Below are positions 14,081 to 57,772 of a stretch of DNA of 64,000 nucleotides, one piece after another. The DNA is taken from NCBI GenBank assembly GCA_025054955.1, contig JANWZE010000025.1, positions 1-64,000 on the forward strand, given 5' to 3'. Origin of the DNA: Blastocatellia bacterium (lineage in GTDB: Bacteria > Acidobacteriota > Blastocatellia > HR10 > J050). The translations under genes and the position numbers were made by a program. The notes beneath the pieces were generated by a model that searched no databases, was not told where the DNA came from, and worked only from the letters and a program-made list of their open reading frames with translations. How positions within the stretch are numbered: position 1 is the stretch's first letter; every line of letters starts with the position of its first letter.

Positions 14081-14218
14081 GATGACTACCCCCTCTTATC
14101 AGAAATCAACTCTTACCGTGACAGCTGTTGCGCTTTACGCCGCGCGATGTTGTGGCTTGTCAACGGAAATCAACTGTTAGCATGATGAATAACTCTTCCT
14201 TGCGTAGCTGTTCCTCGT

Positions 14219-16270: not shown

Positions 16271-16279
16271 GTCCAAACC

Positions 16280-17206: not shown

Positions 17207-17231
17207 AGCTGTACCCCCCTATTGGACATCG

Positions 17232-17340
17232 CGCTCAGACATCAGGCATCAGTCGTCAGACTCCCGTTCATAGTTCGGGGTCTGATGTTTGAAATCGAGG
17301 TCTGTGGTCCGACGTCTAAGACTGAAGGTCTGAAGTCTGC
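17232..17340. repeat. Heptamer repeats in inverted arrangement (TCAGnnn / GTCTGnn)
   Basis: About four units of TCAGnnn (17232-17262) are followed by about nine units of GTCTGnn (17279-17340). The second array is the rough complement of the first, so the region can fold on itself. It fills the gap between the two paralogous methyltransferase genes and reaches into the last codons of copy 2. Confidence 0.65.
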
Positions 17341-18272: not shown

Positions 18273-18371
18273 TGTGTTGTCTCCTCCGAGAAGTGAAGTT
18301 ATCAATCCGTGTCATGATTGCCCGACAGCAACGGTGATGCTGCCCTCTATAGACTTCTTCCCTGACTCTGC

Positions 18372-20288: not shown

Positions 20289-21246
20289 AGCACGTATCCT
20301 TTGACGAGATGGAGTAAAGACCGACGCGCTGCCTCTTGACTCATCCGAGCAACCTGCGTAGTTGGGCACTCAGGTACACAATCTGTGCTCTCAGGGGGAG
20401 TGTGAGAGACGGAGAGCAAGCAGACCGCAGGCTGTAGTCGCTCGATTGAGGTTGAATAACGCAGCGGTGATCTTTACTCCAAGCCGTAAATAGTCCACCA
20501 CTGGGCGAGGCCACACGGCGCGCGTTCCTCTCATCGCGCGTGCGACGACGCGCATCACGCCGTAGGCTTTCGCCGGACACACACTGGCTTGCCCGCAGAA
20601 GCCTCCCCGGCAAACGTAGCCAGCGACCGGCCGATGAACGACCTGCACGGCGTGTTGACACAGCAGCCCACTGAACAGTGGGCGACTGCATCGTTCGATG
20701 AAAATGAAGACGGAATGAGGGATTCAAACAGGGGATGTTAAGGAGATACGGTGACAACAACCATTGGCGCTGGCTGCTCCTCACCGCGTGACACGTGAAA
20801 ATCATATCTCCTCCTCCTCTCCTGACAGCAGCACTCCAGACAAGCTGCCGCCATCGCGCTTTTCCGCGTGGTGTGAGCATGACGCTCGAGGCGTCCCACA
20901 CGGGACGCCACAGTGCAAGATGCATACCCCTCTTGTGACCCCATCAGTACAAGCATCTATCTATTCCAAAACAAAGAGTTGGTGTGAGTCGTCCGACCTT
21001 CACCGATGGATCATGCTGCTTGCGTCCTCTAAACTTTTAGAGACCCTCAACGGTGGCTCAGCTTACTCAACATCCTAACCATTGGTGATACAAATCACTA
21101 CCTGCCCTCTACAAAATGAGAGGGCTCGCCTTCTCCCGATTAGAGTTTGCATCATGCTCAGTAGTTTTCCTCGCGCAAACTCGATAATCATACATGCCAG
21201 TCTAGGTAATTTTGCGCGGTCACCCACGAGTCGTCGGCAAAGCGGT
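20289..21246. other. 958-bp intergenic region
   Basis: No gene is supported here. Frames of up to 194 codons lack domains and good start sites. The region separates two same-strand blocks and probably contains the promoter for the asparagine synthase gene. Visible structure: a perfect 8-bp hairpin GGCGTCCC-acac-GGGACGCC at 20890-20909; a 16-bp palindrome at 21027-21042 (CTCTAAA...TTTAGAG); an AGAGGG hairpin near 21103-21122; and a weak GG-N10-GC match at 20914-20929 (minus strand). Confidence 0.55.
20890..20909. repeat. Perfect CGTCCC/GGGACG hairpin
   Basis: Arms 20890-20897 and 20902-20909 are exact complements around a 4-nt ACAC loop. No T-run follows in either direction. It shares its core with the palindrome at 141-165. 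Confidence 0.4.
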
Positions 21247-34579: not shown

Positions 34580-36616
34580 TCAATCGCCGGCGATGAAAGA
34601 AAATTCCTGAACTTGTCGTTCTGCCGCTGCGGACTGACGGAAATCCCACGTCTTGATGTTCTGGCACGTGGATGGCCGACTTGACAGGCGCGGACGCGAG
34701 GCGATGAAGTGATGATAAACGAGCTGCAGTGAGAGGATGCCCACCATCGCCATATTGTCCACCTCGCCCATCACCTTGCCTTTCTGTTGAAACTTCTGCA
34801 CCAGCTTTTGCACAAACGCCGGATTGAAGCAGCCCGCCTCTTTCAACCGGCTGGGGCTCAATACATCGGCTACGTAATCCAGCGGCTGACCGTTGGCAAA
34901 GAAGCTCTCGATATTCGGCGCGCGATACGCTTGCTTGGGGCGCTCACGGATGCTGAGCGGCACAATATCAGCGAACGCTTTTTTCAACACGCTCTTTTCG
35001 CGCATCGCTTGCAATTTCACCGTTGGCGGCATCGCCGCGGCTAATTCGATCACTCGATGATCGAGGAACGGGAACCGCCCTTCAACCGAATGAGCCATGG
35101 CCTGACGGTCACCTTGCGAAGCCAACAGGTAACCGGCCAACAACATCTTCATGTCAATGTATTGCGCTCGAGACAAGTAGTGCCACCGATGAAAATCCGC
35201 CGGCAACGTCGCCTTGAAGGCAGCAATGGCATCATACCCGTTCAACGCGGCCTTCACTTCATCGGCGAAAAATTTCTTCGTCTTGGCCGTGTTGGACCAC
35301 GTCGGAATATGCGAATAGTGCGGCTCGTCTACGTCCATCATGCCAGCGCCAAAAAACGCTTTGAGGTACTCAGGCGATTGCACCTGAGCCAGCGTCAAAT
35401 ATGGATAGAGCCGCTGGAAGAGCACGGTACGGCGCGTGTTCGGGTGCTGCGCCCAATATCGCCGCAGCTTCGTCTCCTTAAATAGATCGTACCCTAGGAA
35501 CGCTTCATCGCCGCCCTCGCCGCTCAAGACCACTTTCACACCACTGTCGCGCACGAGTCGGGAGAGCAAAAACAGTGGGGCCGGCGCGGTGCGCAGCACC
35601 GGCGTTTCCGTATGCCAAATCACTTGAGGGAAGACCCGCCCAATATCCTCGCTGGAACAATCCACTGCCTGATGATTGGCGCCCAGATAATCCACCATGA
35701 GCCGTTGATAGGGACTTTCGTCGTAAAAATCGTTGGTGAAGCGAACCGAGAACGTAGTCAGCGGATTGTCACTGTAGTGCTTGACCACGCTGGCCACCAC
35801 CGATGAATCAATGCCGCCGCTCAGGTAGACGCCCACAGGCACATCGGCTTGAAGTTGTAACCGCGTTGAGTCAATCACCAGCTCACGCAGTTGCTCGATG
35901 CACTCAGCTTCTGTGCGAGCCGGAGCTTCGCCCTCCACCGGGAATCGCAGATGCCAGTAGGGACGCGTGGTGACACCATGACGGTCGGCAATCAGATAAT
36001 GCCCCGGCGGCAATTGCGATACGCCAGCGAAGATCGTCTCCGGCGGCAGCGTGACCCAATAGGTGAAAATTTGATCCAGGGCGTGCAGATTGATTTGACG
36101 TTTGATCGTCTCGTCCAGAAACAGCGACTTGACTTCTGAGGCGAACCGCAAGCGACCTTCGGCTTCAACATAAAATAACGGACGAATCCCCATGCGATCG
36201 CGCGCCAGCAAGAGTCGTTGCCGCACGGTGTCCCACAAGGCGATGGCAAACTGCCCGTTCAGATGCTCCAGGAAAGCATCGCCTTCCTGCTCGTACAAGT
36301 GAACAATGACCTCTGTATCAGCCTGCGTGTAAAACCGATGCCCTTGCGCCAGCAGTCGTCGGCGAAGCTCTTTGTAGTTGAAGATTTCGCCGTTGAACAC
36401 GACCCAGACGCTCTTGTCTTCATTGTGAATCGGCTGCTGCCCCGTCTCTAGATCAATGATGCTCAACCGCGCGCTGCCCAGACCGACTTTTTCATCCATC
36501 CAAATGCCAGCTTCATCAGGACCACGATGACGGATCATCGCAACCATCCCGGCCAGCAGTTCAGGATTGACCGCTTCATCGGCGTTGAAATGAAACATGC
36601 CAGCGATTCCACACAT
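34580..36616 (-). CDS. Asparagine synthase-type amidotransferase (copy 2)
   Basis: This 678-residue class II amidotransferase starts at the catalytic Cys (MCGIAG). The glutaminase half has ARLSIIDLETGQQP and VVFNGEIFNYKELR. The PP-loop VYLSGGIDSSVV lies near residue 260. VLSGEGGDEAFLGYDLFKE follows near 350 and DRQAMAHSVEGRFPFLDHR near 500. The C-terminal tail of about 50 residues after the synthetase domain is unusual, polar and perhaps a read-through of a spacer. It heads the module AsnB-ACP-amidotransferase-GNAT. The enzyme is clearly different from copy 1 (638 residues) in sequence and neighbours, so it is not a simple local duplication. Confidence 0.9.
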   Translation of the reverse strand: MCGIAGMFHFNADEAVNPELLAGMVAMIRHRGPDEAGIWMDEKVGLGSARLSIIDLETGQQPIHNEDKSVWVVFNGEIFNYKELRRRLLAQGHRFYTQADTEVIVHLYEQEGDAFLEHLNGQFAIALWDTVRQRLLLARDRMGIRPLFYVEAEGRLRFASEVKSLFLDETIKRQINLHALDQIFTYWVTLPPETIFAGVSQLPPGHYLIADRHGVTTRPYWHLRFPVEGEAPARTEAECIEQLRELVIDSTRLQLQADVPVGVYLSGGIDSSVVASVVKHYSDNPLTTFSVRFTNDFYDESPYQRLMVDYLGANHQAVDCSSEDIGRVFPQVIWHTETPVLRTAPAPLFLLSRLVRDSGVKVVLSGEGGDEAFLGYDLFKETKLRRYWAQHPNTRRTVLFQRLYPYLTLAQVQSPEYLKAFFGAGMMDVDEPHYSHIPTWSNTAKTKKFFADEVKAALNGYDAIAAFKATLPADFHRWHYLSRAQYIDMKMLLAGYLLASQGDRQAMAHSVEGRFPFLDHRVIELAAAMPPTVKLQAMREKSVLKKAFADIVPLSIRERPKQAYRAPNIESFFANGQPLDYVADVLSPSRLKEAGCFNPAFVQKLVQKFQQKGKVMGEVDNMAMVGILSLQLVYHHFIASRPRLSSRPSTCQNIKTWDFRQSAAAERQVQEFSFIAGD

Positions 36617-36760
36617 AAGAAGTCTCCACTTGTTGCCTCATGCACTCGTGATGGATGTCATGGACAACGGCTATTGACCTGCGTGAGAGTCTATGACCAC
36701 CAACGAACCATGACAGGGGAATGCAGATAAAAGAACGAACCAGACAAGGACAAGTAACAA

Positions 36761-37525
36761 CTAAACACGCTCAGCCAGCGCTTTGGGCAGATGTTGTTTG
36801 CGCTGACTTAAGACCACGCCCATGATGTGAGCATGAACGCGCTCAAACTCGGTCTTGGCGGCGCTCAGCTCCTCCAGCCGCGATTTATCGGCCTGAGCGA
36901 TCATAATCACACCATCCACTTTCGTCGCCAGCAAGACTGTATCGGGATGGGTCAATACAGGGCCGGCATGGACGATGACATACTTGAATCGTTCGCGCAT
37001 CCGTCGCAATACATCAGCCGGATGAATCAACGACATCAAAGGCATGCTTGCTTGCTCGTCGCCAATCAAATAGAAATTAGTAACGCGAGTTTGCTGCACT
37101 GTTAGTTGGTTAGTCAGGGAAAAGACTTCCTTCAAGGGCCGCCCCGGCAGCGCCGACTTCAGATGCGAAGTGATGTCCGGGCCGCCTTGATAAACGTCCA
37201 CCAGGGCAACCGGCGTGTGCTCCAATTCCGCTAGTATCAACGCCAGCTCAGCCGAAACAGCCGCAGCGCCATCATCATCGTGCGCGCCACACAGCAAGAT
37301 GATTTGCACTCCTTGCATTTGATTGGCCAACAACACAGCCCCTCGCAGGCGCTCCAATTCTTGCCGTCGCGTCCCCGTGTGGGGCAGAATGCCGGACGGA
37401 ACGGACGTCGCCGTGTCCGTTACCGCCGGCTCACTCACGCCAGGCTGCGCACGCTTAGCCTCATGATCGGCCGAACGTGAAACAGAGCCACTAATGCGTT
37501 CTAAGACTCGGGCGTATTTGCTCAT
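36761..37525 (-). CDS. BY-kinase-like protein with lost P-loop
   Basis: This 254-residue protein follows the ParA/CpsD (bacterial tyrosine kinase) fold, with the SRRQE-like helix TRRQELERLRGAVLLA near residue 52. Where kinases have a GEGKTT Walker A motif it reads LLCGAHDDDGAAAVSAEL (residues 77-94), with no Lys-Thr. Walker A' is VALVDVYQGGPDI instead of a VLLIDAD box. The Walker B-type strand YVIVHAGP is also altered. The C-terminus has no tyrosine cluster. It is therefore probably a non-catalytic partner of the chain-length protein, a role known for adaptor-like relatives. It follows (37525) the ATPase gene by 125 nt. The ATG has a GAGAGGG site just upstream. Confidence 0.78.
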   Translation of the reverse strand: MSKYARVLERISGSVSRSADHEAKRAQPGVSEPAVTDTATSVPSGILPHTGTRRQELERLRGAVLLANQMQGVQIILLCGAHDDDGAAAVSAELALILAELEHTPVALVDVYQGGPDITSHLKSALPGRPLKEVFSLTNQLTVQQTRVTNFYLIGDEQASMPLMSLIHPADVLRRMRERFKYVIVHAGPVLTHPDTVLLATKVDGVIMIAQADKSRLEELSAAKTEFERVHAHIMGVVLSQRKQHLPKALAERV

Positions 37526-37650
37526 GACCCTCTCAATGATGGGTGGTTAAGCGCAGATCAGTTCCTCTCTGACTGCCGACTTCCATCCTCTTATAAGTGT
37601 CGCAATCCAACCGTCACATCATTGCAGGCAGTTGGACATCAGCGATGACT

Positions 37651-40233
37651 CTACTGGCTTGAGCGATGCTCAACATCATCGGCTTCCGGCAGCGGTGGCA
37701 AGAGTAACGCTGTTCCGCTTGGCAGCTCGTCCCAATTGTAGACGTGAGGATTTGCGGCGCGCACGCGGTTGACCAATCGCGGCGTGACAGCGCCATACTC
37801 GCGGCGCATAATGCTCAGTAATGTCTCGCCTGGACCGACAATGACCATGTGAGGCGTTGCTTCAGCCGGGTTGGCCTCGCCGCCGGGCAGTGCGGATGAG
37901 ACCGATGCCGGCGCCAGCGGCCCAGTGGGGATCATCAGCGGCGAGGTGGAGATTTCCGTTTTGCCGGGCATCGTGGCCAATTGCCCCGCTGTCATCTTTA
38001 CCGGCCAGCGGCTGACTCCATGAGTCATCCATGCCGTGATCTGACCACCATAGAATTTGGTGATCACAAACCCGCCCACCAAACCTACGCACAGAGCAAA
38101 CAAGGCTAAAAACAACGCAGCAGCGAACAATTGTGGCCGAGACCAATGTTGCGGCACTTCGATCCGCGACAGCGGCACACGGACCGGTTCAGGTCGCGTC
38201 CAGGAGTGATCCCACGTCTGAGGCGTCGCTCCTATGGCAAAGTCATGTTTGACACGCGGAATCGGTTCTGAGTCAGTAGACGGCTGGACGTTCCTGTCAA
38301 ACTCTGCTTCTGTAGGCTCAGACCAGAATGATCTCATCGCGTCAGACTCATCCATGAGTTTTCCTAATGCCGCGCTGCGCACGCCTGCCAATAGTTGTTC
38401 ATCCTGATGCGCCGTGGTTGGTCGTCCTGCCCGCGCCTGAATGAATGTTTCCAATTCATCCAACAATTGATCCATCGAAAGCCCGACCGGTTGACTTTGC
38501 TGCCATCGTGGCCGTGACAGCGAGCTTGGATATTCGTTCGCCAGCCGAACGTTCAACGGACGCTCAACCGGGGACGAGTTGGTCTTATCATGAGTGACAG
38601 CCGGCACGGTATCAGGCGCGGGCGCCGGCGGCATATCCAGCGCAGGCTCTACCGCTCGCGCCGGAGCAGACAACCCAACGAACGCTGGGCGACGCTCTGC
38701 CTCTGCGCCCACCAACGGCGCAGGCACGCCAGGCACACGACCATAGGCGGGACGAAATCGGCCAGCGGCTTTTGGTTTGAACGGCGTTACATTGGAGCCG
38801 CTCTCGGATGATTCTGCTACATCACCAACCTTGCTTGCCGGCGCGGTAGCCGCTGAAGGCGCTTGGTTGTCGGACTCATCGGAAGTTTTCCCATCAGACC
38901 CGGTCACCGCTGGCGCTGCCTCTGAAGCAAAATCCTTTCTAAGCTCTGATGTCTGATCCGGCTCAACCGATACGACCGGCGCCGACGCTGTTGAATCACT
39001 CAAACTAACGACTGCTGCCTGTGTAGAAACCGGCGCCGTTTCAACTGCAACTTCAGGGGTGAGCGTGGCGGCCTGAGCTGGAACCGTTGCCAGTGGAGCG
39101 ACGCCATCTGCCGGTTCAGGTTGTGTCGGCTGCGACCACGATTCGTGACTGACGTCAGCCAACGCGACCGACGGCGCGACGCTCGGCGTTACCACCGGGG
39201 GCGGCGCAATCATTGGTGATGACTGAGCTGAGGCGGCGCCCGAATGTGCGGCTTCTGATACCAGTTCCGCCTGCTGCCTTGTCACCTGCGCAGCCACTGT
39301 CTGCGCGTCGGCTTCGGACGACATCTGATCGTCAGCTTCGGCAGACATGGCCACCAACCATTGCTGCATTTCCGGGTCAGTCGCCTTCGAGGCAGCAACA
39401 GGATCAATCAGCGGCACTGATTCAAACAGGTCTAACTCCTGAGCAGCTTCTTTGACCATCGGCAGCTCGATGCGGTACTTATTCTCCGCATACGCCACCA
39501 GCAGCGCATTATGACAGACAGCGTTAATCAATCGAGGAATCCCGTGCGAGGCTTCGTAAATAGCGGCCAGCACAGGCCGGCTCATGAGCGAGTGCAACGG
39601 CTTATTCCATTCAGTGCACCGCAACCGATGCTCGATGTACTCGCTTGTCTCAGACATGGTCAGTGGCCGCAAATTGACATTGACGGTGATGCGTTGTTTC
39701 AACTGAGCCAGTTCTGACAATCCCAGCTTGGATTTCAACTGCGGTTGACCAACCAACATCACTTGCAGCAGCTTCGCCTGCGGAACCTCAAAATTGGTCA
39801 ACAGGCGAATATCTTCCATCTCGCGGATGGAAAGATTCTGCGCTTCGTCGAAAATCAGCACAACATTGTTACCGGAGCGCCACTGATCAGCCAGTAGATC
39901 CTGAAGCTGTCGGGTCAAGCTCAACACAGTGCCGCCCTGCGGTTTGCTGCCCAACGATTCAAGAATGAATTGCAATCGTTGCTTGAACGTCAGGTCTGTG
40001 CCGGGCAGGAAGACGGTTCGGACAGAATTTTCTAATTGCTCCAACAACGCATAGAGCAACGTCGTCTTGCCCGTGCCAGGTTCGCCGGTCAGACAGATAA
40101 AGCCTCGACGCATTTTCACGCCGTACATCAATGCGGCAAACGCTTCTTGATGGCCGGGGCCCAAATACAGAAATCGCGGGTCGGGGCTTACGCCAAACGG
40201 GTCTTCACGGAATCCAAAATGCTCAGTGTACAT
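37651..40233 (-). CDS. ExeA-like AAA ATPase with membrane segment and LysM-like tail
   Basis: This 860-residue protein has an N-terminal AAA (ExeA/TniB-like) domain at residues 1-270, with Walker A GEPGTGKTT near 50, Walker B VVLIFDEAQNL near 120, and the family opening MYTEHFGFREDPFGVSPDP. A long Ala/Pro/Ser/Thr/Glu-rich linker runs to about 690. One transmembrane helix lies at about 702-724 (LALFALCVGLVGGFVI). A LysM-like domain lies at about 796-846 (VGPGETLLSIMRREYG...VRAANPH). It resembles the XrtA-system ATPase but with a longer, membrane-spanning C-terminus that would place LysM in the periplasm against peptidoglycan. It may energise or gate export. The start overlaps the chain-length gene by 11 nt. 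Confidence 0.87.
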   Translation of the reverse strand: MYTEHFGFREDPFGVSPDPRFLYLGPGHQEAFAALMYGVKMRRGFICLTGEPGTGKTTLLYALLEQLENSVRTVFLPGTDLTFKQRLQFILESLGSKPQGGTVLSLTRQLQDLLADQWRSGNNVVLIFDEAQNLSIREMEDIRLLTNFEVPQAKLLQVMLVGQPQLKSKLGLSELAQLKQRITVNVNLRPLTMSETSEYIEHRLRCTEWNKPLHSLMSRPVLAAIYEASHGIPRLINAVCHNALLVAYAENKYRIELPMVKEAAQELDLFESVPLIDPVAASKATDPEMQQWLVAMSAEADDQMSSEADAQTVAAQVTRQQAELVSEAAHSGAASAQSSPMIAPPPVVTPSVAPSVALADVSHESWSQPTQPEPADGVAPLATVPAQAATLTPEVAVETAPVSTQAAVVSLSDSTASAPVVSVEPDQTSELRKDFASEAAPAVTGSDGKTSDESDNQAPSAATAPASKVGDVAESSESGSNVTPFKPKAAGRFRPAYGRVPGVPAPLVGAEAERRPAFVGLSAPARAVEPALDMPPAPAPDTVPAVTHDKTNSSPVERPLNVRLANEYPSSLSRPRWQQSQPVGLSMDQLLDELETFIQARAGRPTTAHQDEQLLAGVRSAALGKLMDESDAMRSFWSEPTEAEFDRNVQPSTDSEPIPRVKHDFAIGATPQTWDHSWTRPEPVRVPLSRIEVPQHWSRPQLFAAALFLALFALCVGLVGGFVITKFYGGQITAWMTHGVSRWPVKMTAGQLATMPGKTEISTSPLMIPTGPLAPASVSSALPGGEANPAEATPHMVIVGPGETLLSIMRREYGAVTPRLVNRVRAANPHVYNWDELPSGTALLLPPLPEADDVEHRSSQ

Positions 40234-41740
40234 CAGCGTATCCTCCTACACCCTCCTCTTCAGGGAGCGCGGCCAACACATTGAGTGAAAGCTGTCGCTC
40301 GATGATCTCTTCGGTTCGCACGGGATGCTCGAAGTATTCCAGGCCAAAAGCGGTGGCGATGCTGAAAAAGAGGCCGACAGCCAACCCCAAAATGGCATTC
40401 AACATGACATTGGGACTGACCGGCTGATAGTTGGGGGTCGCCGGCTCAGCAATGTTGACGTTGACGATCCGGTGCTGATCCAGCGCCTGGCTCAAGCGCG
40501 ATTCTTCGGTCTTTTTCACATAAGCTAAGTAGGTCTGCTCGACCACATCCCGCATTCGACGCAAGTTGCGCTGCTCATAGCTGTTTTCACGAATGTTGCG
40601 CACGCCGGCGCTATAACTTCCCAGCACACTGGAGAGCGCCTTGATGCGTTCTCGTTGCATGGAGGCTTCAGCGCGGGCACGCATCAGATCACTTTTGAGC
40701 GCCATGTGCAGCTCGTTTAGGCCCTGCGCCACTTCCTGAGCCGGTTTCTTCTCTAGTTGGTCAAGGTACTCTGTCACAGTCGCCACTTGCTCTTCCACTT
40801 GCTTGACCACCCGACTGTCTGGCTGGTACTTTTGCCGCAGTTCGGTCCGGCGCAGTTGCAATTCTCCCAATTTTTCACGTAATGTGTCAAGTCCTTCTTG
40901 ATATTTTGTTCGTGTTTCAGTGGTTATCCGTTCAGGCTGAGTGGCCAAAAACTGTTCTAACAGTGCGGCCTGCTCTTCGGCTGCTTTTAATCCAACTTTG
41001 GCTTCGTTTAGTTGCGCCTGAAATTCGGCCTGCTTCTGTAATGCCAGGTGTTCTTGCGTTTCGGCTGTGGCCAGCCCGTGACCGGATTCAAACCGTTTCA
41101 ACTGGTCTTCAATTTCCTGCAGCTTCTTGCGCAGCGCCTCTGTCTGCTCTTCATAAAACGCCGTCGCATTGCTTACCTGACGAAGTTGCAAATGCCGATC
41201 AATGTATGCCTGCGACAGCGTGTTCAACACATTGGCGGCCAGTTCCGGGTCACGAGCGCGATAGCTGACCTGCACCACGTTCGATTTTTTGATCGGGATA
41301 ACTTGCAGATTTTTCTTCAGGTTCAGTATGGCTCGATCCACTGCAGCCTTATCGGGCTGATCGTGAATTTTTCGATAAGAGCTGTCAAACCAGCGACTGA
41401 GCAGGCCGCCACCTGAGTTGGATTGCTTGGCCAAGCCGGTTTGCTCGACGACCTTGGCCAGAATGGGACGGCTGGTTAACAACTCGATCTCTGAATTCAT
41501 CTCGACTTCGCCGACTTCCGCCGAGACATATTCCCGCGTGGTTTCCACTTCGGATGAGACTACTGGTTCAGACCGCCCGCGGCGTAGCAAAATCTTACTA
41601 GTTGATTCATAGGTAGGCGGAATGAAGAGGGAACCAACGACAGAAATGACCAAGACCAGTAACGTGATCAACAGGATGACTTTTCGGCGCGCAAACAGGA
41701 CGGTCAAAATATAGCGCAGACTCAGTGGCTCTCGTTGCAT
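40223..41740 (-). CDS. Wzz/GNVR chain-length determinant
   Basis: This 505-residue inner-membrane protein has transmembrane helices at residues 22-41 (VILLITLLVLVISVVGSLFI) and about 455-475, with a long periplasmic coiled coil between. A GNVR-like region lies at 180-280 and a proline-containing YQPVSPN segment precedes the second helix. It sets polymer length and links export to the envelope. There is no C-terminal kinase domain; a BY-kinase-like protein is encoded separately three genes on. The start at 41740 follows AAGGAGTTCC with good spacing and begins MQREPLSLRYIL; a longer frame to 41782 has no better site. The stop overlaps the ATPase start by 11 nt. Confidence 0.9.
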   Translation of the reverse strand: MQREPLSLRYILTVLFARRKVILLITLLVLVISVVGSLFIPPTYESTSKILLRRGRSEPVVSSEVETTREYVSAEVGEVEMNSEIELLTSRPILAKVVEQTGLAKQSNSGGGLLSRWFDSSYRKIHDQPDKAAVDRAILNLKKNLQVIPIKKSNVVQVSYRARDPELAANVLNTLSQAYIDRHLQLRQVSNATAFYEEQTEALRKKLQEIEDQLKRFESGHGLATAETQEHLALQKQAEFQAQLNEAKVGLKAAEEQAALLEQFLATQPERITTETRTKYQEGLDTLREKLGELQLRRTELRQKYQPDSRVVKQVEEQVATVTEYLDQLEKKPAQEVAQGLNELHMALKSDLMRARAEASMQRERIKALSSVLGSYSAGVRNIRENSYEQRNLRRMRDVVEQTYLAYVKKTEESRLSQALDQHRIVNVNIAEPATPNYQPVSPNVMLNAILGLAVGLFFSIATAFGLEYFEHPVRTEEIIERQLSLNVLAALPEEEGVGGYADVH

Positions 41741-41880
41741 AACGGAACTCCTTGAAAACGATCCAAGCTGGGGATCAACCATCCACAGGAGGGTCGCCGA
41801 TGGTCATCCCCAGCTTTCATTGCGTCCTACCTCCAAAGACCTTCAGTACAGGGCTATGTTGACGCGATATTCCATCGAGG

Positions 41881-42804
41881 TTACCGCCGTCGGAGCGGGT
41901 CCGTGTACAACCCAAACGACTGAATTTGCAACGCACGAAGCGCATCATTGATTCGACTCAGTTTGGATTGCGGCACGTAGATCAGATCGCCATCTCGCAG
42001 CGTGAGGTTCAAAAACGGGTCTGGACGCTTGGAATAAACTTTGGTCATATCAACGACGGTGACTCTCATCTGCCCCTCGCCGATAGGACGAAGATGAATG
42101 ACCTGCTTGCGATGCGCTTGCGGCGTGAATCCGCCGGCCAGCAACACGGCTTGCGCCAGCATGTCGCCATCGCGCAATTCGTAGGCGCCCGGTTTCACGA
42201 CATAGCCGCCGATGAAAATGCGTGGCTTGACGAATTCCTTGAGTGTGACGGAAATCAGCGGGTCAATCAATTCTTTGGCGTATCGCTCGGTCAATTTCTG
42301 TTCCAACTCTGACACCGTCAATCCTTCAGCCCGCACATCCCCAATCAACGGCAGCGAAATCATACCATCCGGCTTGACAATCGTTTCTTGATTCAATTCC
42401 GGTTGATAGAAAAATTTGACTTCGAGTTTATCCCCCTGATGCAGTTGATAACCAGAGGAGGTGCGCAGTTGAGGTGGGCCGCCAGCAAATTGCACGATGG
42501 TGGAGTCTGGCTCAGTGGCTCCCGCAGGCGTTGCTGTCGAGGATGAGGGTAGCGACGGCGACGCGCTCTGAGCCGACACGCTGAGCTGAAGCCCCAACAT
42601 CAGCACGATACCGGGTAACACCTTTCGCTTGATTCCTGTCCTCCGCTTGATTCCTGTCAGACACAGCCGACCGAGCCTTCCGATCATACCGGCGGCGGCT
42701 TGAAAGCCGACACGCCCAAACTCCGAATGCGCATCCAGTAACTGCACACCCTCGAGCGATGCAGGCTGCCGCCATCCCGGTTTTTCAACCGTCTTCTCTT
42801 TCAT
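41881..42804 (-). CDS. Polysaccharide export protein (Wza-like)
   Basis: This 307-residue outer-membrane export protein has a Poly_export domain (YQLHQGDKLEVKFFYQPEL near residue 117, then PLIGDVRAEGLTVSELEQKL) and an SLBB domain (FIGGYVVKPGAYELRDGDM near 200). A hydrophobic signal (VLPGIVLMLGLQLSVSAQS, about 62-80) follows a long N-terminal extension, so either export uses an internal start or the true start is later. There is no lipobox Cys, unlike E. coli Wza. The start at 42804 is supported by GGAGGAACAGGCC; a GTG at 42876 is an alternative. A small internal duplication (GIKRRTGIKRK) lies just before the signal. It would form the channel for the polymer. Confidence 0.88.
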   Translation of the reverse strand: MKEKTVEKPGWRQPASLEGVQLLDAHSEFGRVGFQAAAGMIGRLGRLCLTGIKRRTGIKRKVLPGIVLMLGLQLSVSAQSASPSLPSSSTATPAGATEPDSTIVQFAGGPPQLRTSSGYQLHQGDKLEVKFFYQPELNQETIVKPDGMISLPLIGDVRAEGLTVSELEQKLTERYAKELIDPLISVTLKEFVKPRIFIGGYVVKPGAYELRDGDMLAQAVLLAGGFTPQAHRKQVIHLRPIGEGQMRVTVVDMTKVYSKRPDPFLNLTLRDGDLIYVPQSKLSRINDALRALQIQSFGLYTDPLRRR

Positions 42805-43124
42805 GGCCTGTTCCTCCAACCACATTGTTACAGGGGCTGCGATGGCCCTACTCAGCCCCATCAAACCAGACTTCACACACCGACACGATCACCCAGCAAC
42901 GATCCGATGAAAGTTACGCCTGCGCGCCAACCCACTGCGTGCCAGCTCACAAGGTTGATCTGTTGGTGGCTGCTGCCGGCGTCGTTGCTGTTGGTCTGTC
43001 GGTTCATGTCGTCGTTCGATTCCGGTTTACTATTGCGTTGCTCACACGGCCTGCCGGTCCGCGTCAAATCTTGGTTCATCGTAAGCTGCCCGAGTTGCTG
43101 CCGATGAATCACCACGCTGCCTGG
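42805..43124. other. 320-bp intergenic region inside the export operon
   Basis: On the minus strand this lies between the zinc-ribbon gene and the Wza-like gene. Open frames on the opposite strand have no domain and are not supported. Apart from an in-frame GTG extension of the export gene (to 42876), nothing recognisable is seen: no T-run terminator, promoter consensus or repeat. Confidence 0.5.
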
Positions 43125-43349
43125 CTAATGGAAATAGGCTCGCTGGTTTCGTTGTGTATCCAGAGACTCCTTCAGTCGCTGGCCGCACACCGAACAAAAC
43201 TTGGCATACGGATTGGTGATTGCGCTCTGGCAACCACTACACGCCGTCAGTAGCCGTGACCCGCAATTGGAGCAGAAATGCTCCTGCAGTTTGGCATTGG
43301 AAAAATAGTCACACTGAGGACATGTAAAATAGGTTTCTGTCATGGTCAT
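43125..43349 (-). CDS. Small double zinc-ribbon protein
   Basis: This 74-residue protein is built from four CxxC knuckles: CPQC, CSNC, CSGC and CSVC. They form two zinc ribbons of the DZR type. Such small proteins may bind nucleic acid or another protein; no function can be assigned. The start at 43349 (or an ATG two codons later) has an AGAGGG site nearby. It is the first gene of the minus-strand exopolysaccharide run and lies about 126 nt downstream of the transcription start predicted from the sigma-54 promoter at 43486-43501. The last residues run beyond the ribbons as a short polar tail. Confidence 0.75.
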   Translation of the reverse strand: MTMTETYFTCPQCDYFSNAKLQEHFCSNCGSRLLTACSGCQSAITNPYAKFCSVCGQRLKESLDTQRNQRAYFH

Positions 43350-44008
43350 CAATCCCTCTGAAATTGCCTGTTCCCGCGTGTTGTGCATCGTCTTGTTTGG
43401 CAGCGGGCTTTTCTGGTATCGCCCGATACCATCAAAGCCCGCCAAGCGAACCTCCTAAGAACTGCTTCACGACGCCGGGCTGATTTGCAATGAGTGTTCC
43501 AACGCAATGTACTCCGAGGCGAGCGCACTTAAGCACCTGATAACAAACCCTTTTGCGAAATTTGCAATGAGCTTCAATGATTCGCTCAGATGGATGAGGC
43601 CTCTACATTTTTGCAGTCCGCCCTTGGAAGCGCTCATAGATTGAGCAAGACAATGACCGAGAGAACAATCAGTTAAATGCCCTATAGAAAAACAACGCTC
43701 GCCCTCTTCTCAAATAGAGGATTGGCCATTTCTAGGTAATTTCCCAGCGCCGATCTAAGTAAAAATACCTAGGTGGCTAGGTGATACCACCAATTGTTTT
43801 CACCCCCTGTTATGGAGACAATAGGGGCGGCACTAAAAAAGAACGGTTGTGGGTAGCCGGGTTGGGCTGACAACAACAACACATCTCGCTTCGGCGAGCG
43901 CCCACCTACCGAATCGCTCCCCTCAGATGAGTGAAGGGGCGATGAGAAAAAACAGATGTAGTAGGGTCTGGAACTAGAAGGGTGAATAATAGAGGAGGTT
44001 GGGTCACG
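43350..44008. other. Divergent regulatory region between the export operon and the sigma-54 activator
   Basis: This 659-bp stretch without a gene separates two divergent transcription units. It contains a sigma-54 promoter candidate (43486-43501, minus). A 12-bp direct repeat ATTTGCAATGAG lies at 43483-43494 and 43560-43571. A CCTCT/AGAGG hairpin lies at 43703-43720. CTAGGT boxes are found near 43732, 43768 and 43777. These are possible activator-binding sites, but none is proven. Confidence 0.6.
43486..43501 (-). promoter_or_regulatory. Sigma-54 promoter candidate for the zinc-ribbon/Wza operon
   Basis: Read on the minus strand, the site is TGGAAC-ACTCA-TTGCA. It matches the -24/-12 consensus TGGCAC-N5-TTGCA at all but one position and keeps the GG-N10-GC spacing. 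Transcription would start near 43475, giving a leader of about 126 nt before 43349. A divergent gene at 44009 encodes a sigma-54 activator. Confidence 0.55.
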
Positions 44009-45409
44009 GTGAATCGAACGGTACTACTGGTTACAAAAGACCTCTCGACCGAGAGGGTGATGATGAATACGTTATCGGTGCGGGGCTACCGACTGCTGCT
44101 GGCCGATACGACAGCCTCGGCTTTGGAGCAGCTTCAACAGCATCCAGTTGACGTAGTAATGACGGAGATCGGGCCGCACGGTATCTCAACCGTTGAATCG
44201 CTTGATAAAAGCAGTAGCGATCTGTTGAAAATGAGCGCCGTGGTGATCGCGGCTGAAGATACACCGGTCAGAGTGCTGAGCGAGATCACGCGGCTGGGCA
44301 ACTCTCAGTTGATGATCAAACCGTTTCAGGAGCCGGAGCTGCTTGGCTGCCTCGCCCGTGCGCTGGGTGAACGACTGATCCCACCATCAGTGCCGACGCC
44401 GCTGCGCCAAGGGCCGATGATGACCAACATCATCACCCAGAACCCGCAATTTCAAGCCCTCATGGCCATGGCCACGCGGGCCGCGCGCACCGACGCGACT
44501 ATGTTAATCACCGGCGAAACAGGCACCGGCAAAGAATTACTCGCCCGCGAAATTCACCGATTGAGTCGTCGAGCGGATCAACCATTTGTCACCGTCAATT
44601 GTGCGACGCTTTCTGAGACGTTACTGGAAACCGAACTATTCGGCCACGCGCGCGGCGCGTTCACCGGCGCCGAACAAGCCAAGGCCGGGTATTTTGAAAT
44701 TGCCAACGGCGGCACGGTGTTCCTCGATGAAATTGGCGAAATCAGCCATTCATTCCAACTGAAGCTGCTGCGCATTCTTCAACAGAAGGAATACAATCGC
44801 GTCGGTGACACGCGAACCTACCGCACAGACGTGCGCATCCTGGCTGCGACTAATCAGGACTTGATGCAGGCCGTTCAGCAACAACGGTTCCGCGCCGATT
44901 TGTTTTATCGGCTGAATGTCGTCCATTTGCAACTGCCGCCGCTCAGACAACGCAAAGATGACATCCCGGCGTTAGCTCACTTTTTCTTACACAACTCAGC
45001 CAAGGAACTGGGGCAGCCTGTGACCATGATTGCTCCCGTGGCCTTGCATCTACTGCAACAACACGATTGGCCAGGCAATATCCGTGAGCTACAAAACGTG
45101 ATCGAACGCGCCGTCATTATGTGCGACGGCGATACGCTCGGCCCTGAGCATCTACCCGAATATATCACCGCGAGCGCCCAACCGGACTCGTCGGGAGGCT
45201 TTCCAACACAGAAGCTCGATGCGCCGTTTAAGTTAGCCAAAGAAGAATTCGTCGGAGAATTTGAACGCCGTTACATCCTGCATCATCTCTCGCTCAATCG
45301 CGGCAATGTAGCCAAGACGGCGCGAACAACCGGCATGTTTGAGGGTCATCTTTATCAAAAGATTAAACGTTATCGGATAGACCCCAATCAATTTCGTCAA
45401 CTCGAGTGA
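44009..45409 (+). CDS. Sigma-54-dependent activator with atypical receiver (PrsR-like)
   Basis: This 466-residue protein has an N-terminal receiver-like domain (1-120), an AAA+ sigma-54 interaction domain (about 140-380) and a C-terminal Fis-type helix-turn-helix (RGNVAKTARTTGMFEGHLYQKI, about 430-455, in part). The AAA+ domain has Walker A GETGTGKE near residue 169 and the intact GAFTGA loop near 216. In the receiver, the phosphoacceptor Asp is replaced by Glu (residue 53, DVVMTEIG). The acidic pocket reads TKD and the conserved Thr/Ser is Ala, while the Lys remains (MIKPF). It may be locked active or respond to other inputs. The GTG start is chosen from GAGGAGG 10 nt upstream. The layout matches the XrtA-locus regulator PrsR. 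Confidence 0.86.
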   Translation: MNRTVLLVTKDLSTERVMMNTLSVRGYRLLLADTTASALEQLQQHPVDVVMTEIGPHGISTVESLDKSSSDLLKMSAVVIAAEDTPVRVLSEITRLGNSQLMIKPFQEPELLGCLARALGERLIPPSVPTPLRQGPMMTNIITQNPQFQALMAMATRAARTDATMLITGETGTGKELLAREIHRLSRRADQPFVTVNCATLSETLLETELFGHARGAFTGAEQAKAGYFEIANGGTVFLDEIGEISHSFQLKLLRILQQKEYNRVGDTRTYRTDVRILAATNQDLMQAVQQQRFRADLFYRLNVVHLQLPPLRQRKDDIPALAHFFLHNSAKELGQPVTMIAPVALHLLQQHDWPGNIRELQNVIERAVIMCDGDTLGPEHLPEYITASAQPDSSGGFPTQKLDAPFKLAKEEFVGEFERRYILHHLSLNRGNVAKTARTTGMFEGHLYQKIKRYRIDPNQFRQLE

Positions 45410-45783: not shown

Positions 45784-47016
45784 ATGCGGACATGGAGGTT
45801 ACAGTGGGTCAAGTTTGTTGGCACGACTGTTGCTCTGATATTCAGTCTATGCTTGTTTAGCTCGTGCGGCAGCAATAGCTCTGACAGGTTGCCGGCGACG
45901 ACCGAACCACATGCTCCATCCACGACTGCGACGAACGCACAGGAGACGTCAGATTCGCTTTCAGCGCAACCGTCATCGGATTCAACGTCATTCGGTCAAG
46001 GTGAAACGCTCGATGATCGGCTTGGCGCATCTGATGGCTTCGCCGCTTCGATTTTCTTTGTAAGCGACCTGACCGGCAGTCTCGACGTGTGCGGCTGTGC
46101 ACAAAATCCACAGGGGGGCATTGCCCGGCAAAAGGGTTTTCTCAACGAGTTTGAGAATCGCTACCGAGGCATTCCCTACCTCTATGTTGATCTTGGTCAC
46201 AGCCTGAGCGAGCGCACCAAATTCGGGACGATGAATTTGCTGGAGCCGGTCAGAGTGGGAAATGAGTGGGTTCTACGCGCTTACAACGAACTGAACGTAT
46301 CGGCGGTGAACGTCTCATTCCGTGACCTCGTGCATCTGAGACACACATTGGCTGCTGATGTCTTCGCCAAGCAACGCCGTGAACTGCCTGTGCTGACCCG
46401 ATTCGTCTCGGCCAACGTCAAACCCAAGACGAATGCTCATGTGGCGTTGCCGCCCTACCTCATTCAAACGCTGCGTGGCGGACGGTTGAAGCGACCGCTG
46501 AAAGTGGCGTTGGTAGGACTGACCGAGGTCGGCACGCTTCCGCTGGAAGCATTCACCATTGAAGACCCGTTGGAAGTTGCGCACCGTGTCATCCCGGAAG
46601 TGAGCGCCAAAGCTGACATCGTTGTGGTCATGGGGTATCTTTCGCGCGCTGTCGGCCAGCGATTGGCTGGCAGCGGCCTTCCATACAATGCCTTACTGAC
46701 GGCCTTTCGCTTGCCGAATCTTCAACCGATCCGGCGCTACGGCAAAAAGCTGTGGGCTACCAGTATCTACGAAGGGCGTTTCTTGGGTGAACTGCGCATT
46801 TACACCGACCCACAGGGACGATTTGCTGATCTGAAGGCGCGCTATATTCCGCTGGATCAGGTTGTGCCGGATGATCCTCGTTTTGCCGCACTACGCAGTG
46901 AGGCGCGCGCTGCCATCAACAAAGCAGGAGAACAGATGAGCAAAGAGGGAACGGCAAACGCAACACCGGCGACCGGGGCCACGAGTCACGAACCACGAGC
47001 CACGAATGAGGATTGA
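45784..47016 (+). CDS. Lipoprotein related to metallophosphoesterases, active site degenerate
   Basis: This 410-residue protein has a lipoprotein signal (LCLFSSC, Cys near residue 27). A Ser/Thr-rich linker to about 75 leads into a domain similar to the N-terminal half of calcineurin-like/5'-nucleotidase proteins that carry a GCGCxxNPxGGLARR signature. Here it reads VCGCAQNPQGGIARQKGF near residue 102. The metal-binding Asp-x-His of the first motif is missing (FVSDLTGS), so catalysis is doubtful. It may be a binding protein. The last 11 residues (ATSHEPRATNE) are encoded by a heptamer repeat that continues past the stop. It is preceded by the 66-bp repeats and followed by a DciA-like gene. 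Confidence 0.7.
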   Translation: MRTWRLQWVKFVGTTVALIFSLCLFSSCGSNSSDRLPATTEPHAPSTTATNAQETSDSLSAQPSSDSTSFGQGETLDDRLGASDGFAASIFFVSDLTGSLDVCGCAQNPQGGIARQKGFLNEFENRYRGIPYLYVDLGHSLSERTKFGTMNLLEPVRVGNEWVLRAYNELNVSAVNVSFRDLVHLRHTLAADVFAKQRRELPVLTRFVSANVKPKTNAHVALPPYLIQTLRGGRLKRPLKVALVGLTEVGTLPLEAFTIEDPLEVAHRVIPEVSAKADIVVVMGYLSRAVGQRLAGSGLPYNALLTAFRLPNLQPIRRYGKKLWATSIYEGRFLGELRIYTDPQGRFADLKARYIPLDQVVPDDPRFAALRSEARAAINKAGEQMSKEGTANATPATGATSHEPRATNED

Positions 47017-52720: not shown

Positions 52721-53968
52721 TCACAGGAGGCGAAATCCTAACTGACGTCCAATGCGATTGAAAATGGTTTGTAAATCATCCAGCGACGGCGCGTCAAAGT
52801 AATGATCATTCGTGCCCGGCCTAGAGGAGGCCACGCGTTGCATCAATTCAATGTCCACATCGTCGGAAACCCCATAACGAATCGAAAAGATTTCGATGCC
52901 TTCATCCTTGGCGGCCTGCGCTTGCGCGAGCATCGCTTGGTCGAGGCAACCATAATCAGCATCGTCGCAATTCATCACGCCCATGCCGAAATAGGCATTG
53001 CGGCGGCAGGTGCTGTTGGGATTTGTCATCGCATCGCCGATATTGTTATCGCCATCGGTGAGCAGGATCATAACCTTTCGGAATCGCGACCGCGGGCCAG
53101 CCTCAGTAAACGGCGCATCGGAGGTCAACACGTGCCGGCCCCATTTGATGCCTTCCGCAATCGTCGTGCAAGAAGAATACGGAGTACCGCCCTGCGCCTG
53201 CATGCTGGCAATCGCCGCATGAATGGCCCCCTTGTTATAAGAGAGTCCAGCCACCGGCGGAAGCGCCGGATTTGTGCATGATTGATCTGCCGGGTTGAGC
53301 GGTTGATTGAACGACCCATCGGCATTGCGGCAGCCGGCCGGCCGACCATCCACATCGGCGGGCAATCGCACTTTTCCACGAAACGCTACCAATCCGACTT
53401 TGATAGACGGCGCTGTGCCGTTGGGAATTAACATGTCAACAAACTGATGAGCCGCCGCCTTCACTGATTCAATTGGCTCACCCTCCATGCTGCCAGAATT
53501 GTCTATCACCAGCGCAACTTCCAGATCATTGAAGCCGGCGCAAGCGGACGCCGCGACATCGCGCGAGCTAATGGCCAGCACATTCATGAACGTCATTTCC
53601 ACATTCACCTGTGCTGTCACACATACGCTCCGAACGCCAGTGCCGGGATTAAGAGCGGTAACCGTCGCGCCTGAGTAATTCCTGTTCAGATAATCATTGA
53701 CCGCATTGGCCACGGCGCCATTTTGGCAGTCAGGATCGCTCATCAAGTACATTGACCCGGCCAGCGCCGCTGCATCCACGGCTGCTTGCAGTCGCGCGCG
53801 AGCCGTATAGAGCCGTCCCATATCAACGGCGAATCCGGCCATGCCAAGAAGGATGGGGAACGTGATCGTCACCAGGAGTAACGCTTGGCCGCGCGCTCGC
53901 GCTCGCCGACGCGCCAGATACTGTTCAGACCCGCTCCTTGTCGAAGAAACAACCAATCGTTTCATCAT
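52721..53968 (-). CDS. VWA protein with TadG-like N-terminus (copy 3)
   Basis: This 415-residue protein has a TadG/TadE-like N-terminal helix (GQALLLVTITFPILLGMAGFA, in part, about 28-48), then MGRLYTARARLQAAVDAAALAG and a VWA domain. The MIDAS motif is VIDNSGSM (DxSxS) near residue 160. Cys-rich loops (CRNADG, NCDDADYGCLDQ) are kept in all three copies and suggest disulfides outside the cytoplasm. The C-terminus FNRIGRQLGFRLL is shared too. The start is chosen at 53968 (Met-Met) because the sigma-54 candidate at 54012-54027 would put the transcript start at about 54001, just before the other ATG at 53998. Unlike copies 1 and 2 it has no TadE-like partner. Confidence 0.8.
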   Translation of the reverse strand: MMKRLVVSSTRSGSEQYLARRRARARGQALLLVTITFPILLGMAGFAVDMGRLYTARARLQAAVDAAALAGSMYLMSDPDCQNGAVANAVNDYLNRNYSGATVTALNPGTGVRSVCVTAQVNVEMTFMNVLAISSRDVAASACAGFNDLEVALVIDNSGSMEGEPIESVKAAAHQFVDMLIPNGTAPSIKVGLVAFRGKVRLPADVDGRPAGCRNADGSFNQPLNPADQSCTNPALPPVAGLSYNKGAIHAAIASMQAQGGTPYSSCTTIAEGIKWGRHVLTSDAPFTEAGPRSRFRKVMILLTDGDNNIGDAMTNPNSTCRRNAYFGMGVMNCDDADYGCLDQAMLAQAQAAKDEGIEIFSIRYGVSDDVDIELMQRVASSRPGTNDHYFDAPSLDDLQTIFNRIGRQLGFRLL

Positions 53969-54011
53969 GCTCTTCTCTGAATTGTTTACGCTTACCATAT
54001 CTCATCTCCCT

Positions 54012-54686: not shown

Positions 54687-55163
54687 CTAAGAGCAAGGAA
54701 TCCATGGTTCGTTCAGTTTGCGATCCTGGCCTTGCAGTTCAATCTGGCCGCTGTTGGGCATGATGCGGCTGATCAAGGGAACCACCGGCCGATACGTGTA
54801 CCGTACGATGACTTCGACCAAGTCACAGGGCGCTCCCGGATGATTATCGCGGGCGCCGCCGGATGTGGTCACACCGGCATAGCTGCGCACGCTGATAATC
54901 GGCGCATTGCCCGGCAGACCGGCAACCGCATTCTGAGCGGCTGTGATGATGCGACTCAACCGCGTGCCGTCTTCCTCACCTTCTCCAGTGACGGCCACAC
55001 GCGCGGCTGTGCGGGCTGCATGTTGAACCGTGACCCAAGCATGAAACAGCCGCCCCATCTCGATGACGCCAAATAGACACACCACCAGCAGGGGCGTGAC
55101 CAGCACCATCTCCGTGAGCGCTTGTCCGCGGCTGCTACGCATATAATCGTGATAGTTCACCAT
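54687..55163 (-). CDS. TadE-like protein (b2)
   Basis: This 158-residue pilus-assembly TadE-like protein has a short cytoplasmic start (SSRGQALTEMVLVTPLLVVCLFG, in part), one transmembrane helix at about 17-34 and a small extracytoplasmic domain. The phrase IEMGRLFHAWVTVQHAARTAAR is typical of TadE. The C-terminal end QDRKLNEPWIPC is nearly the same in its paralogue at 57299-57772. It closes the second TadE-VWA-TadE module, 17 nt after the VWA gene. The ATG at 55163 has GAGGG upstream. It probably sits in the inner membrane facing the periplasm and may form a minor-pilin-like filament part. The function is not known. Confidence 0.84.
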   Translation of the reverse strand: MVNYHDYMRSSRGQALTEMVLVTPLLVVCLFGVIEMGRLFHAWVTVQHAARTAARVAVTGEGEEDGTRLSRIITAAQNAVAGLPGNAPIISVRSYAGVTTSGGARDNHPGAPCDLVEVIVRYTYRPVVPLISRIMPNSGQIELQGQDRKLNEPWIPCS

Positions 55164-55180: not shown

Positions 55181-56497
55181 TTAGAGCAATCGAAATCCAA
55201 GTTGACGCCCAATTCTGTTAAACACTGTTCCAATGTCATTGACCGACGGGGCATCATAGTAATGATCATCGGTGCCCTGTGACGATGATGCCACCGCCTT
55301 CATCAACGCGATGTCCACCGCGTCGGACACGCCGAAGCGAATGGCAAAAATTTCAATACCCTCCTCCTTCGCTTTCCGCGCCTCCTCCAACATGGCTTGA
55401 TCCAGGCAGCCATAATCATTACACCCACAGTTGGTCACGCCCATCTGGAAATAGGCATTGCGCCGATAGGTTGATTGTGGATCTGTGCGAGGGCTGCGTC
55501 CGCCGAACTGACCTGAACATGTGCCATCCTCGTTATCTCCGTCGGTGAGCAGGATAATCACCTTGCGAAATCGGTCCTTGGAACCCCCTTCAACAAACGG
55601 CGCTTCCGGCGTCAATACATGCCGTGCCCATTTTAACCCTTCGGCAATAATGGTGCCCGACGTATCGCTCGGTGAGTTCCCGGCATTCATCGTATGAATC
55701 GCGCGTTTAATGCTGGACTTGTTGTAAGAGAGTCCAAAAACCGGCGGCAACGCGGCATCCCGGCAGGAATAATCGGGAGGATTGACGTTGGAATTATTAA
55801 CCGAGCCATTAGCATTGCGACAACCGGCCGGCTTGCCATCCACGCCATCAGGCAGCCGGATTTTGCCGCGAAACGGCACAAGACCAACCTTGATTGAAGG
55901 AGCGCCGCCGTCGGGAATCATCAGGTCCACCAGCTTGATCGCTGCTTGCTTCACTTCGGCAATGGGCCGTCCATTCATACTGCCAGAATTGTCAACGACC
56001 AGAACGACCTCAAGGTCATTAAACCCTGCGCATGAACGCGCGCTCACACTTCGAGAGCTGAGGGCCATCACTTTCATGAACGTCATGGGCACATCGGTCT
56101 GAGCCGAGACGCACACGCCACGCACCTGCGTTAACGGGCTCAACGCTGTGACGAGCGCGCCCGGATAGTTGTTGACAAGGTATTCAGTAACAACATTGGC
56201 AACTATGCCGTTTCTCAGTTGTGGGTCTGAACCAAGATACATCGAACCAGCCAGCGCCGCCGCATCCACGGCTGCTTGTAATCTGGCCTTGGCGGCATAC
56301 ATTCGTCCCATGTCAACGGCCAATCCCGTCATCCCTAACACGACCGGCAAGGCGACCGCGATGGCCAGCAAAACTTGACCACGGGCCCGACCGCGCCCGC
56401 TACGGGATAGGCATCGTTGAGGTGCCCCTAAGCCTGAGCGGATTGGGCAGCAGCTCGCTAACCAATGGAATATTGCCGAAAATAAACCTGTAATCAT
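55181..56497 (-). CDS. VWA protein with TadG-like N-terminus (copy 2)
   Basis: This 438-residue protein has N-terminal TadG-like hydrophobic segment (GQVLLAIAVALPVVLGM near residues 40-56), VDAAALAGSMYL and a VWA domain with MIDAS VVDNSGSM near 160. It keeps the Cys-rich loops (CRNANGS, NCGCNDYGCLDQ) and the terminal FNRIGRQLGFRLL. The only ATG in frame (56497) lies inside the upstream TadE-like gene and overlaps it by 98 nt, exactly as in copy 1. No strong ribosome site precedes it, so coupled re-initiation or +1 frameshifting from the TadE frame are both possible. Confidence 0.82.
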   Translation of the reverse strand: MITGLFSAIFHWLASCCPIRSGLGAPQRCLSRSGRGRARGQVLLAIAVALPVVLGMTGLAVDMGRMYAAKARLQAAVDAAALAGSMYLGSDPQLRNGIVANVVTEYLVNNYPGALVTALSPLTQVRGVCVSAQTDVPMTFMKVMALSSRSVSARSCAGFNDLEVVLVVDNSGSMNGRPIAEVKQAAIKLVDLMIPDGGAPSIKVGLVPFRGKIRLPDGVDGKPAGCRNANGSVNNSNVNPPDYSCRDAALPPVFGLSYNKSSIKRAIHTMNAGNSPSDTSGTIIAEGLKWARHVLTPEAPFVEGGSKDRFRKVIILLTDGDNEDGTCSGQFGGRSPRTDPQSTYRRNAYFQMGVTNCGCNDYGCLDQAMLEEARKAKEEGIEIFAIRFGVSDAVDIALMKAVASSSQGTDDHYYDAPSVNDIGTVFNRIGRQLGFRLL

Positions 56498-57298: not shown

Positions 57299-57772
57299 TC
57301 ATGGACAGGGAATCCACGGTTCGTTCAATTTGCGATCCCGACCGCGCAACTGAATCGTTCCTTGATTGGGCATCAGACGCCGGATGAATGGCAGAATGGG
57401 CCGATAGTTGTACCGAAGCTCGACCTCCACCAATTCGCACGGTTGCCCCGGATTGCCCAGTCGGCCTGGGCCAGTGGCTGTCATGCCGGGCCAACTTTGC
57501 ACGATCACTTGCGGAACCGGACTCAAGCTTTGCACCCGCGAGAGCGCCGCGCTGACAATGGCATTGTAGCGCGTGCCTTCCAGCTCGCCTCTGCCTGTGA
57601 CGGCGACCCGCGTGGCCACTCGCGCAGCATGTTGGATCGTCACGTAACAGAAGAACAATCGGCCTAATTCGATAACACCATACACGCACAGAAACATGAT
57701 CGGGGCGGCCAACGCCATCTCCGTGATCCCCTGACCACGACTGCGTTTCTGCTGAGATCGTTCGTGAGCCAT
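57299..57772 (-). CDS. TadE-like protein (b1)
   Basis: This 157-residue paralogue of the gene at 54687 has SRGQGITEMALAAPIMFLCVYGVIELG (in parts), one helix at about 17-35, then FFCYVTIQHAARVATRVAVTG and a small exported domain. The terminal DRKLNEPWIPCP block is the shared hallmark of this pair. The start at 57772 follows AAGGAGG with 5-nt spacing. It comes 21 nt after VWA copy 1 and closes module 1. Confidence 0.84.
   Translation of the reverse strand: MAHERSQQKRSRGQGITEMALAAPIMFLCVYGVIELGRLFFCYVTIQHAARVATRVAVTGRGELEGTRYNAIVSAALSRVQSLSPVPQVIVQSWPGMTATGPGRLGNPGQPCELVEVELRYNYRPILPFIRRLMPNQGTIQLRGRDRKLNEPWIPCP

Follow-up and report, generated by a model that had tools for sequence, protein, structure and literature searches.

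Receiver domains without the phospho-accepting aspartate make up 2–4% of receivers (PMC4395418, PMC12632262), with figures of 2.0% for these domains and 0.9% for HisKA domains lacking their histidine given in PMC12632262. Glutamate is the commonest substitute (26%; PMC4395418) and exchange of the switch threonine for alanine is common (PMC4395418, PMC12632262), so that a residue change of this kind is in itself ordinary. NtrC with a glutamate at the phospho-Asp site is active (Klose 1993, as cited in PMC4395418), but the Asp-to-Glu exchange alone is often not enough (PMC4395418), and the mechanisms by which pseudo-receivers switch have been called a mystery (PMC12632262).

Here, we analyse a sigma-54 activator and its surroundings in 64,000 nucleotides of a Blastocatellia genome (GCA_025054955.1, contig JANWZE010000025.1; “the window”). 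As in the regulators known as ALRs or PsRs (PMC4395418, PMC12632262), its receiver has Glu for Asp, Ala for Thr and a retained Lys, and its fold is predicted here. Whereas ALRs keep the first acid of the acidic pair in 65% of cases, the window activator has lost this residue too, and it differs from them in its output, a sigma-54 AAA+ activator beside the locus of a His-less kinase gene. FleQ (Pseudomonas), VpsR (Vibrio) and EpsI/Nla24 (Myxococcus) are likewise NtrC-like and run exopolysaccharide genes, and FleQ is listed as an atypical regulator that is active without phosphorylation, as the window activator probably is; these proteins bind c-di-GMP, however, whereas the window genome yielded no GGDEF domain. 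PrsK and PrsR of the PEP-CTERM/EpsH systems (PMC1569441) are similar in that an NtrC-like regulator and a kinase are tied to exopolysaccharide loci and an enhancer-like motif lies upstream of −24/−12 promoters, but they are usually encoded in tandem and typed as a working kinase and regulator, whereas the two window proteins have lost both phosphosites. NtrX, NtrC1, NtrC4 and LuxO, the best whole-chain structural neighbours, share the domain order of the activator but are taken to be phosphorylatable, whereas the window protein has no pocket and a short linker predicted to be disordered. It is the way these features are combined that is unusual: a single exopolysaccharide locus contains a stable Asp-less activator together with a kinase that lacks its His, the enhancers are recognisable, and nothing points to synthesis of c-di-GMP.

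The activator and its receiver pocket

The activator gene (43,982–45,409, plus strand; alternative GTG start at 44,009) encodes an NtrC-type protein with a receiver-like domain (residues 10–131; 44,009–44,374; delimited by the alignment of three orthologues and by the receiver fold of the model), an AAA+ sigma-54 interaction domain with its lid (44,429–45,187; Pfam, motifs and structure comparison) and a Fis-type helix-turn-helix. Pfam places Sigma54_activat at residues 150–316, AAA_lid_14 at 322–402 and HTH_8 at 425–464, and the Walker A motif (GETGTGKE) and the GAFTGA loop are intact; with this AAA+ domain and the Fis-type helix-turn-helix the protein has the sequence features of NtrC-type bEBPs. 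The Response_reg match (residues 14–121) scores 24.4 bits, under the cut-off of 30.2.

The receiver was aligned with those of 30 other REC-AAA+ activators from the same genome and its relatives, all of which (30/30) have a canonical pocket consisting of an acidic pair (DD or ED), Asp, Thr and Lys. At the phospho-Asp position, the window reads ATG-ACG-GAG-ATC in frame (M-T-E-I; 44,159–44,170), placing there Glu62 (GAG, 44,165–44,167; residue 53 if counted from the GTG at 44,009), which is kept in both orthologues. T18-K19 (44,033–44,038) replaces the acidic pair, beside a retained third acid (D20), Ala91 (44,252–44,254) replaces the switch Thr, and by inspection a Leu occupies K−3, which is normally aromatic. 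Lys113 (44,318–44,320) is the only residue of the pocket set that is present. An earlier note, made from the letters alone, had read the Glu, the altered acidic pair and the Ala in this way; the in-frame codon and the alignment bear it out, and the loss of the pocket is more complete than that note described. Receiver homology and predicted fold in the absence of the phospho-Asp identify the domain as a pseudo-receiver and, with Lys alone left of the pocket, set the protein apart from canonical response regulators. Since Asp, acidic pair and switch Thr are all gone, this activator cannot normally be switched by phosphorylation of an Asp.

In the AlphaFold model (mean pLDDT 81.9, pTM 0.59) the receiver adopts a (beta-alpha)5 fold with Glu62 where beta3 ends; the linker is short, disordered and free of coiled coil. 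The AAA+ domain lies within 1.4–1.7 Å rmsd of those of ZraR, FlrC and FleQ, and FleQ and VpsR join NtrX, NtrC1, NtrC4 and LuxO among the whole-chain neighbours.

The earlier note suggested that Asp-to-Glu mimicry might keep the regulator always on, in which case Glu62 and Lys113 would hold the receiver active and the operons would be governed only by supply and sigma-54. By analogy with NtrC, Glu62 may indeed mimic the phosphate: receivers without the Asp most often carry Glu instead, a residue that activates NtrC when placed at this site (PMC4395418), and both Glu and Lys are invariant in the three orthologues. The stronger part of the suggestion fares less well, as the exchange by itself is often insufficient (PMC4395418) and loss of the acidic pair and the switch Thr removes the usual coupling of pocket to surface. 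With the switch Thr gone, phosphate mimicry is not favoured, and we consider a constitutively active receiver unlikely.

Two orthologues of the activator were found, in the metagenome-assembled genomes G001 (JALSQX010000005, Blastocatellia) and G002 (RFHM01, Acidobacteria), which represent another genus of the same family; both read VTQD, TEIGP, VIAAEE and IIKPF in the receiver. Scans of 396 sampled genomes of the phylum, 58 relatives and 84,980 GTDB species genomes, the last by two receiver peptide patterns and therefore not exhaustive, yielded no further orthologue and none with the normal Asp that the earlier note had named as evidence against its reading. Receiver dN/dS is about 0.09 within the second genus (G001 versus G002); between genera it is 0.13, at a dS close to saturation. 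Judged by these comparisons, the phosphosite-less state is conserved under purifying selection and not decaying, which agrees with the earlier view that chance decay is not at work; the same residues in two other genomes and the low dN/dS rule out sequencing error or decay. That the receiver is a roleless leftover on its way to loss would fit its absence from the sister clade (see below) and its lower identity between genera (53%, against 74% for the AAA+ domain), but is made highly improbable by the dN/dS of about 0.09, the open frame, the intact predicted fold and the retention, in both genera, of key residues and of the pocket loops (TEIGPxGIS and AAExTP in all three orthologues).

Conservation is uneven over the domain. 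Invariant positions make up 18/28 of the alpha4-beta5-alpha5 face and 5/28 of alpha1 and alpha3 (P = 0.0009, for a grouping picked after viewing the per-element table), and helix alpha1, which as a rule contributes to the surface for kinase docking, is among the least conserved parts (2/13 positions invariant). In the activator tree, a clade of receiver-free activators is the sister group of the pseudo-receiver proteins (the six-member clade has 100/100 support; the tree tool flags long branches), so that phosphorylation control has been abandoned by two routes in this lineage. In three of the four genomes, the receiver-less sisters are accompanied by genes for urocanase and imidazolonepropionase. 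Just 3′ of each sister gene lies a sigma-54-like site (L041 2,792, L043 1,924, L044 2,768 (minus)), and the one in L041 stands before a large secreted protein of FG-GAP/beta-helix-like type, which is likely to be a surface target as well.

Exopolysaccharide gene runs and their likely enhancer–promoter modules

In all three genomes, the activator gene points away from a double-zinc-ribbon gene and from genes for exopolysaccharide export and chain length, which lie on the other side of a shared intergenic region. The window run (EPS1; 34,580–43,445, minus strand) encodes the double zinc ribbon, export and chain-length proteins, an ATPase, a BY-kinase-like protein and an asparagine-synthase-like amidotransferase. 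A second run (EPS2; 5,726–20,369, minus strand) encodes an amidotransferase, two methyltransferases, a heparinase-like protein, a sugar dehydrogenase, a glycosyltransferase, a beta-helix protein, the His-less kinase and an initiating sugar transferase. The order of the genes on a single strand suggests operons, and terminator-like matches between 5,700 and 21,300 are at or below chance.

Across the whole window, −24/−12 matches with at most two mismatches are at chance level (48 versus 47.5 expected), and we therefore used only sites backed by their position in three genomes or by enhancers. A perfect sigma-54 consensus at 45,819, inside the open reading frame 45,784–47,016, was taken as a chance match. 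Before the zinc-ribbon gene, a sigma-54 element occurs at the same place in the three genomes, reading TGGAACACTCATTGCA in the window (43,486–43,501, minus strand), CGGCATGCCGCTTGCA in L038 (12,610) and TGGCATACGACTTGCA in L039 (1,204). Upstream of it lies a palindrome, CCTCT-N8-AGAGG, whose distal copy (43,703–43,720, minus strand; 10/10 in the window) is centred 210, 212 and 211 bp upstream of the −24 element in the window, L038 and L039, respectively. The proximal copies follow at 107, 107 and 106 bp, with 9/10 matches in L038 and L039 and one good half-site (7/10; 43,600–43,617, minus strand) in the window. The EPS2 run is preceded by a similar arrangement on the minus strand, a weaker sigma-54-like promoter (GGGTATGCATCTTGCA; 20,914–20,929) with a proximal (9/10; 21,026–21,043) and a distal palindrome (10/10; 21,106–21,123) 105 and 185 bp upstream of its −24 element.

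Five palindromes with no more than one mismatch occur in the window (expected, 1.0; 0/100 shuffles reach five); the half-sites of the window pair exactly only at the N8 spacer length; and the combined palindrome and promoter pattern matches once per genome in three genomes, only at these loci (in the window genome, at the EPS2 module), with 0 matches for the reversed control, all counts which are not unbiased P values because the palindrome was first noticed by eye and the pattern written from the sites. What carries weight, as far as sequence comparison goes, is the recurrence in three genomes at fixed spacing. The CCTCT-N8-AGAGG and sigma-54 module beside the activator, repeated before the EPS2 run, is newly described here.

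Upstream of the activator gene, the stretch 43,735–43,815 (ATTGGTGNNATCACCTAR, then AAATTACCTAGA) is strongly conserved in the three genomes. It may serve as the promoter of the activator gene itself or as an additional operator. AAATTACCTAGA and GTATCACC are found again near EPS2, at 21,211 and 21,091.

Separately, the BY-kinase-like protein of EPS1 (36,761–37,525, minus strand) has lost the Walker A lysine (GAHDDDGAAAV), as have those of relatives (L067 4,353–5,111; L068 5,933–6,676), which read GTRQDDGASSV, making it a third conserved apparent pseudo-enzyme along with the pseudo-receiver and the His-less kinase. On the far side of the activator, inspection points to three similar large pilus-assembly proteins of TadG/von Willebrand A type (52,721–53,998, 55,181–56,497 and 57,794–59,116, minus strand), apparently a tandem amplification; small TadE-like genes (54,687–55,163 and 57,299–57,772, minus strand) each precede one of two of them.

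Candidate inputs to the activator

Control might come from a small molecule bound by the altered pocket or the AAA+ domain, comparable to c-di-GMP in FleQ, VpsR and EpsI/Nla24. The pocket loops are conserved; among regulators of exopolysaccharide genes, the closest analogues in function are c-di-GMP binders, and the structural neighbours include FleQ and VpsR. GGDEF domains (PF00990) were not found in the 99% complete window genome, however, while control genomes were positive, and this makes control of the FleQ/VpsR type unlikely. The Arg after Walker A that FleQ requires (R185) is present in the window activator but is Gln in the G001 orthologue, although VpsR binds without all of the FleQ residues. 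No other ligand is indicated, and we judge a ligand-sensing receiver or motor very unlikely. No GGDEF match was obtained even though the genome encodes sigma-54 and many activators and has a large locus for exopolysaccharide.

Membership in the PEP-CTERM PrsK/PrsR family can be ruled out. The proteins score below the cut-offs of TIGR02915 (PrsR; 317.6 versus 502.6 bits) and TIGR02916 (PrsK; 65.7 versus 300 bits), and the exosortase (EpsH, PF09721) was not found in the window genome, G001 or G002.

The second protein of the locus is a GAF-GAF-PAS-HisKA-HATPase protein (7,343–9,610, minus strand) in which Gly530 (GGC, 8,021–8,023) takes the place of the phospho-His, as identified by Pfam and alignment. 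The N, G1 and G2 boxes for ATP binding are kept. Gly also stands at the His position in the G001 and G002 orthologues (50% identity), whereas seven more distant relatives have His; the missing His that the earlier note had reported is thus real. In all three genomes, the gene stands directly before that of the initiating sugar transferase. The note had also called for a survey of paired losses, and in every genome found to have the genes (3/3) the losses of kinase His and receiver Asp are both fixed. Its further step to co-evolution does not follow, since three genomes that share both losses represent one evolutionary event and offer no contrast.

The His-less protein might bind the pseudo-receiver and signal without phosphate. 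Pseudo-histidine kinases that act by contact are known, for example DivL (PMC4211667), and the joint fixation of the losses, the preserved ATP-binding motifs and the position of the kinase gene in the run behind the EPS2 module are consistent with such a pair. But the genes are 34 kb apart in different gene runs, and on separate contigs in G001 and G002, receiver helix alpha1 is hypervariable, other kinases are encoded in the genome, and a single shared event cannot test co-evolution. We regard a contact pair as distinctly unlikely, and are just as doubtful of the wider proposal that a two-component pair turned into a phosphate-free contact switch for exopolysaccharide operons, with the activator driving the operon of its own pseudo-kinase.

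Other partners were considered and rejected. An ancestral pair with intact His and Asp finds no counterpart, because none of the His-bearing kinase relatives examined (in the window genome, G001 and G004) occurs with the activator or an exopolysaccharide locus. An apparently intact REC-GAF kinase/NarL-type regulator pair adjoins the activators of G001 and G002 (L038 7,424–10,320; L040 986–3,880), but these proteins are absent beside the window gene and form a pair of their own.

Proposed mechanism and implications

Probably, the protein is an NtrC-type activator with a pseudo-receiver that drives exopolysaccharide operons independently of phosphorylation. Read from the DNA, the phosphosite is lost and its loss conserved, the motor is intact, and the enhancer–promoter modules are conserved; we infer palindrome binding by the activator itself, the assembly role of its receiver and the input that sets its activity. 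With moderate confidence, we take the following to be the best explanation of the whole. The activator, its AAA+ motor and DNA-binding part intact and phosphorylation no longer used, would bind the paired palindromes about 106 and 185–212 bp upstream of sigma-54 promoters and switch on two exopolysaccharide runs, the one that diverges from its own gene and another at a distance of 23 kb. The folded pseudo-receiver would aid dimerisation and assembly, probably via the conserved alpha4-beta5-alpha5 face, and output would be set by the amount of protein, a partner or a ligand instead of an Asp phosphate. The window genome contains rpoN. Counting against this explanation, about 20 other activator genes are present, any of which might bind the palindromes, the proximal EPS1 site of the window is half only, the EPS2 promoter is weak, no counterpart of the EPS2 module turned up in the G001 and G002 kinase loci, and the comparison covers three genomes.

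The locus offers a clean system for the study of pseudo-receiver switching, with a motor-intact activator, likely enhancers and promoters, and replicates in two runs and three genomes. No GGDEF domain having been found, the usual c-di-GMP answer is removed, and a receiver-less sister clade is available for comparison with the pseudo-receiver activators. The His-less kinase and Asp-less regulator of one locus would, moreover, be testable as a contact-based pair.
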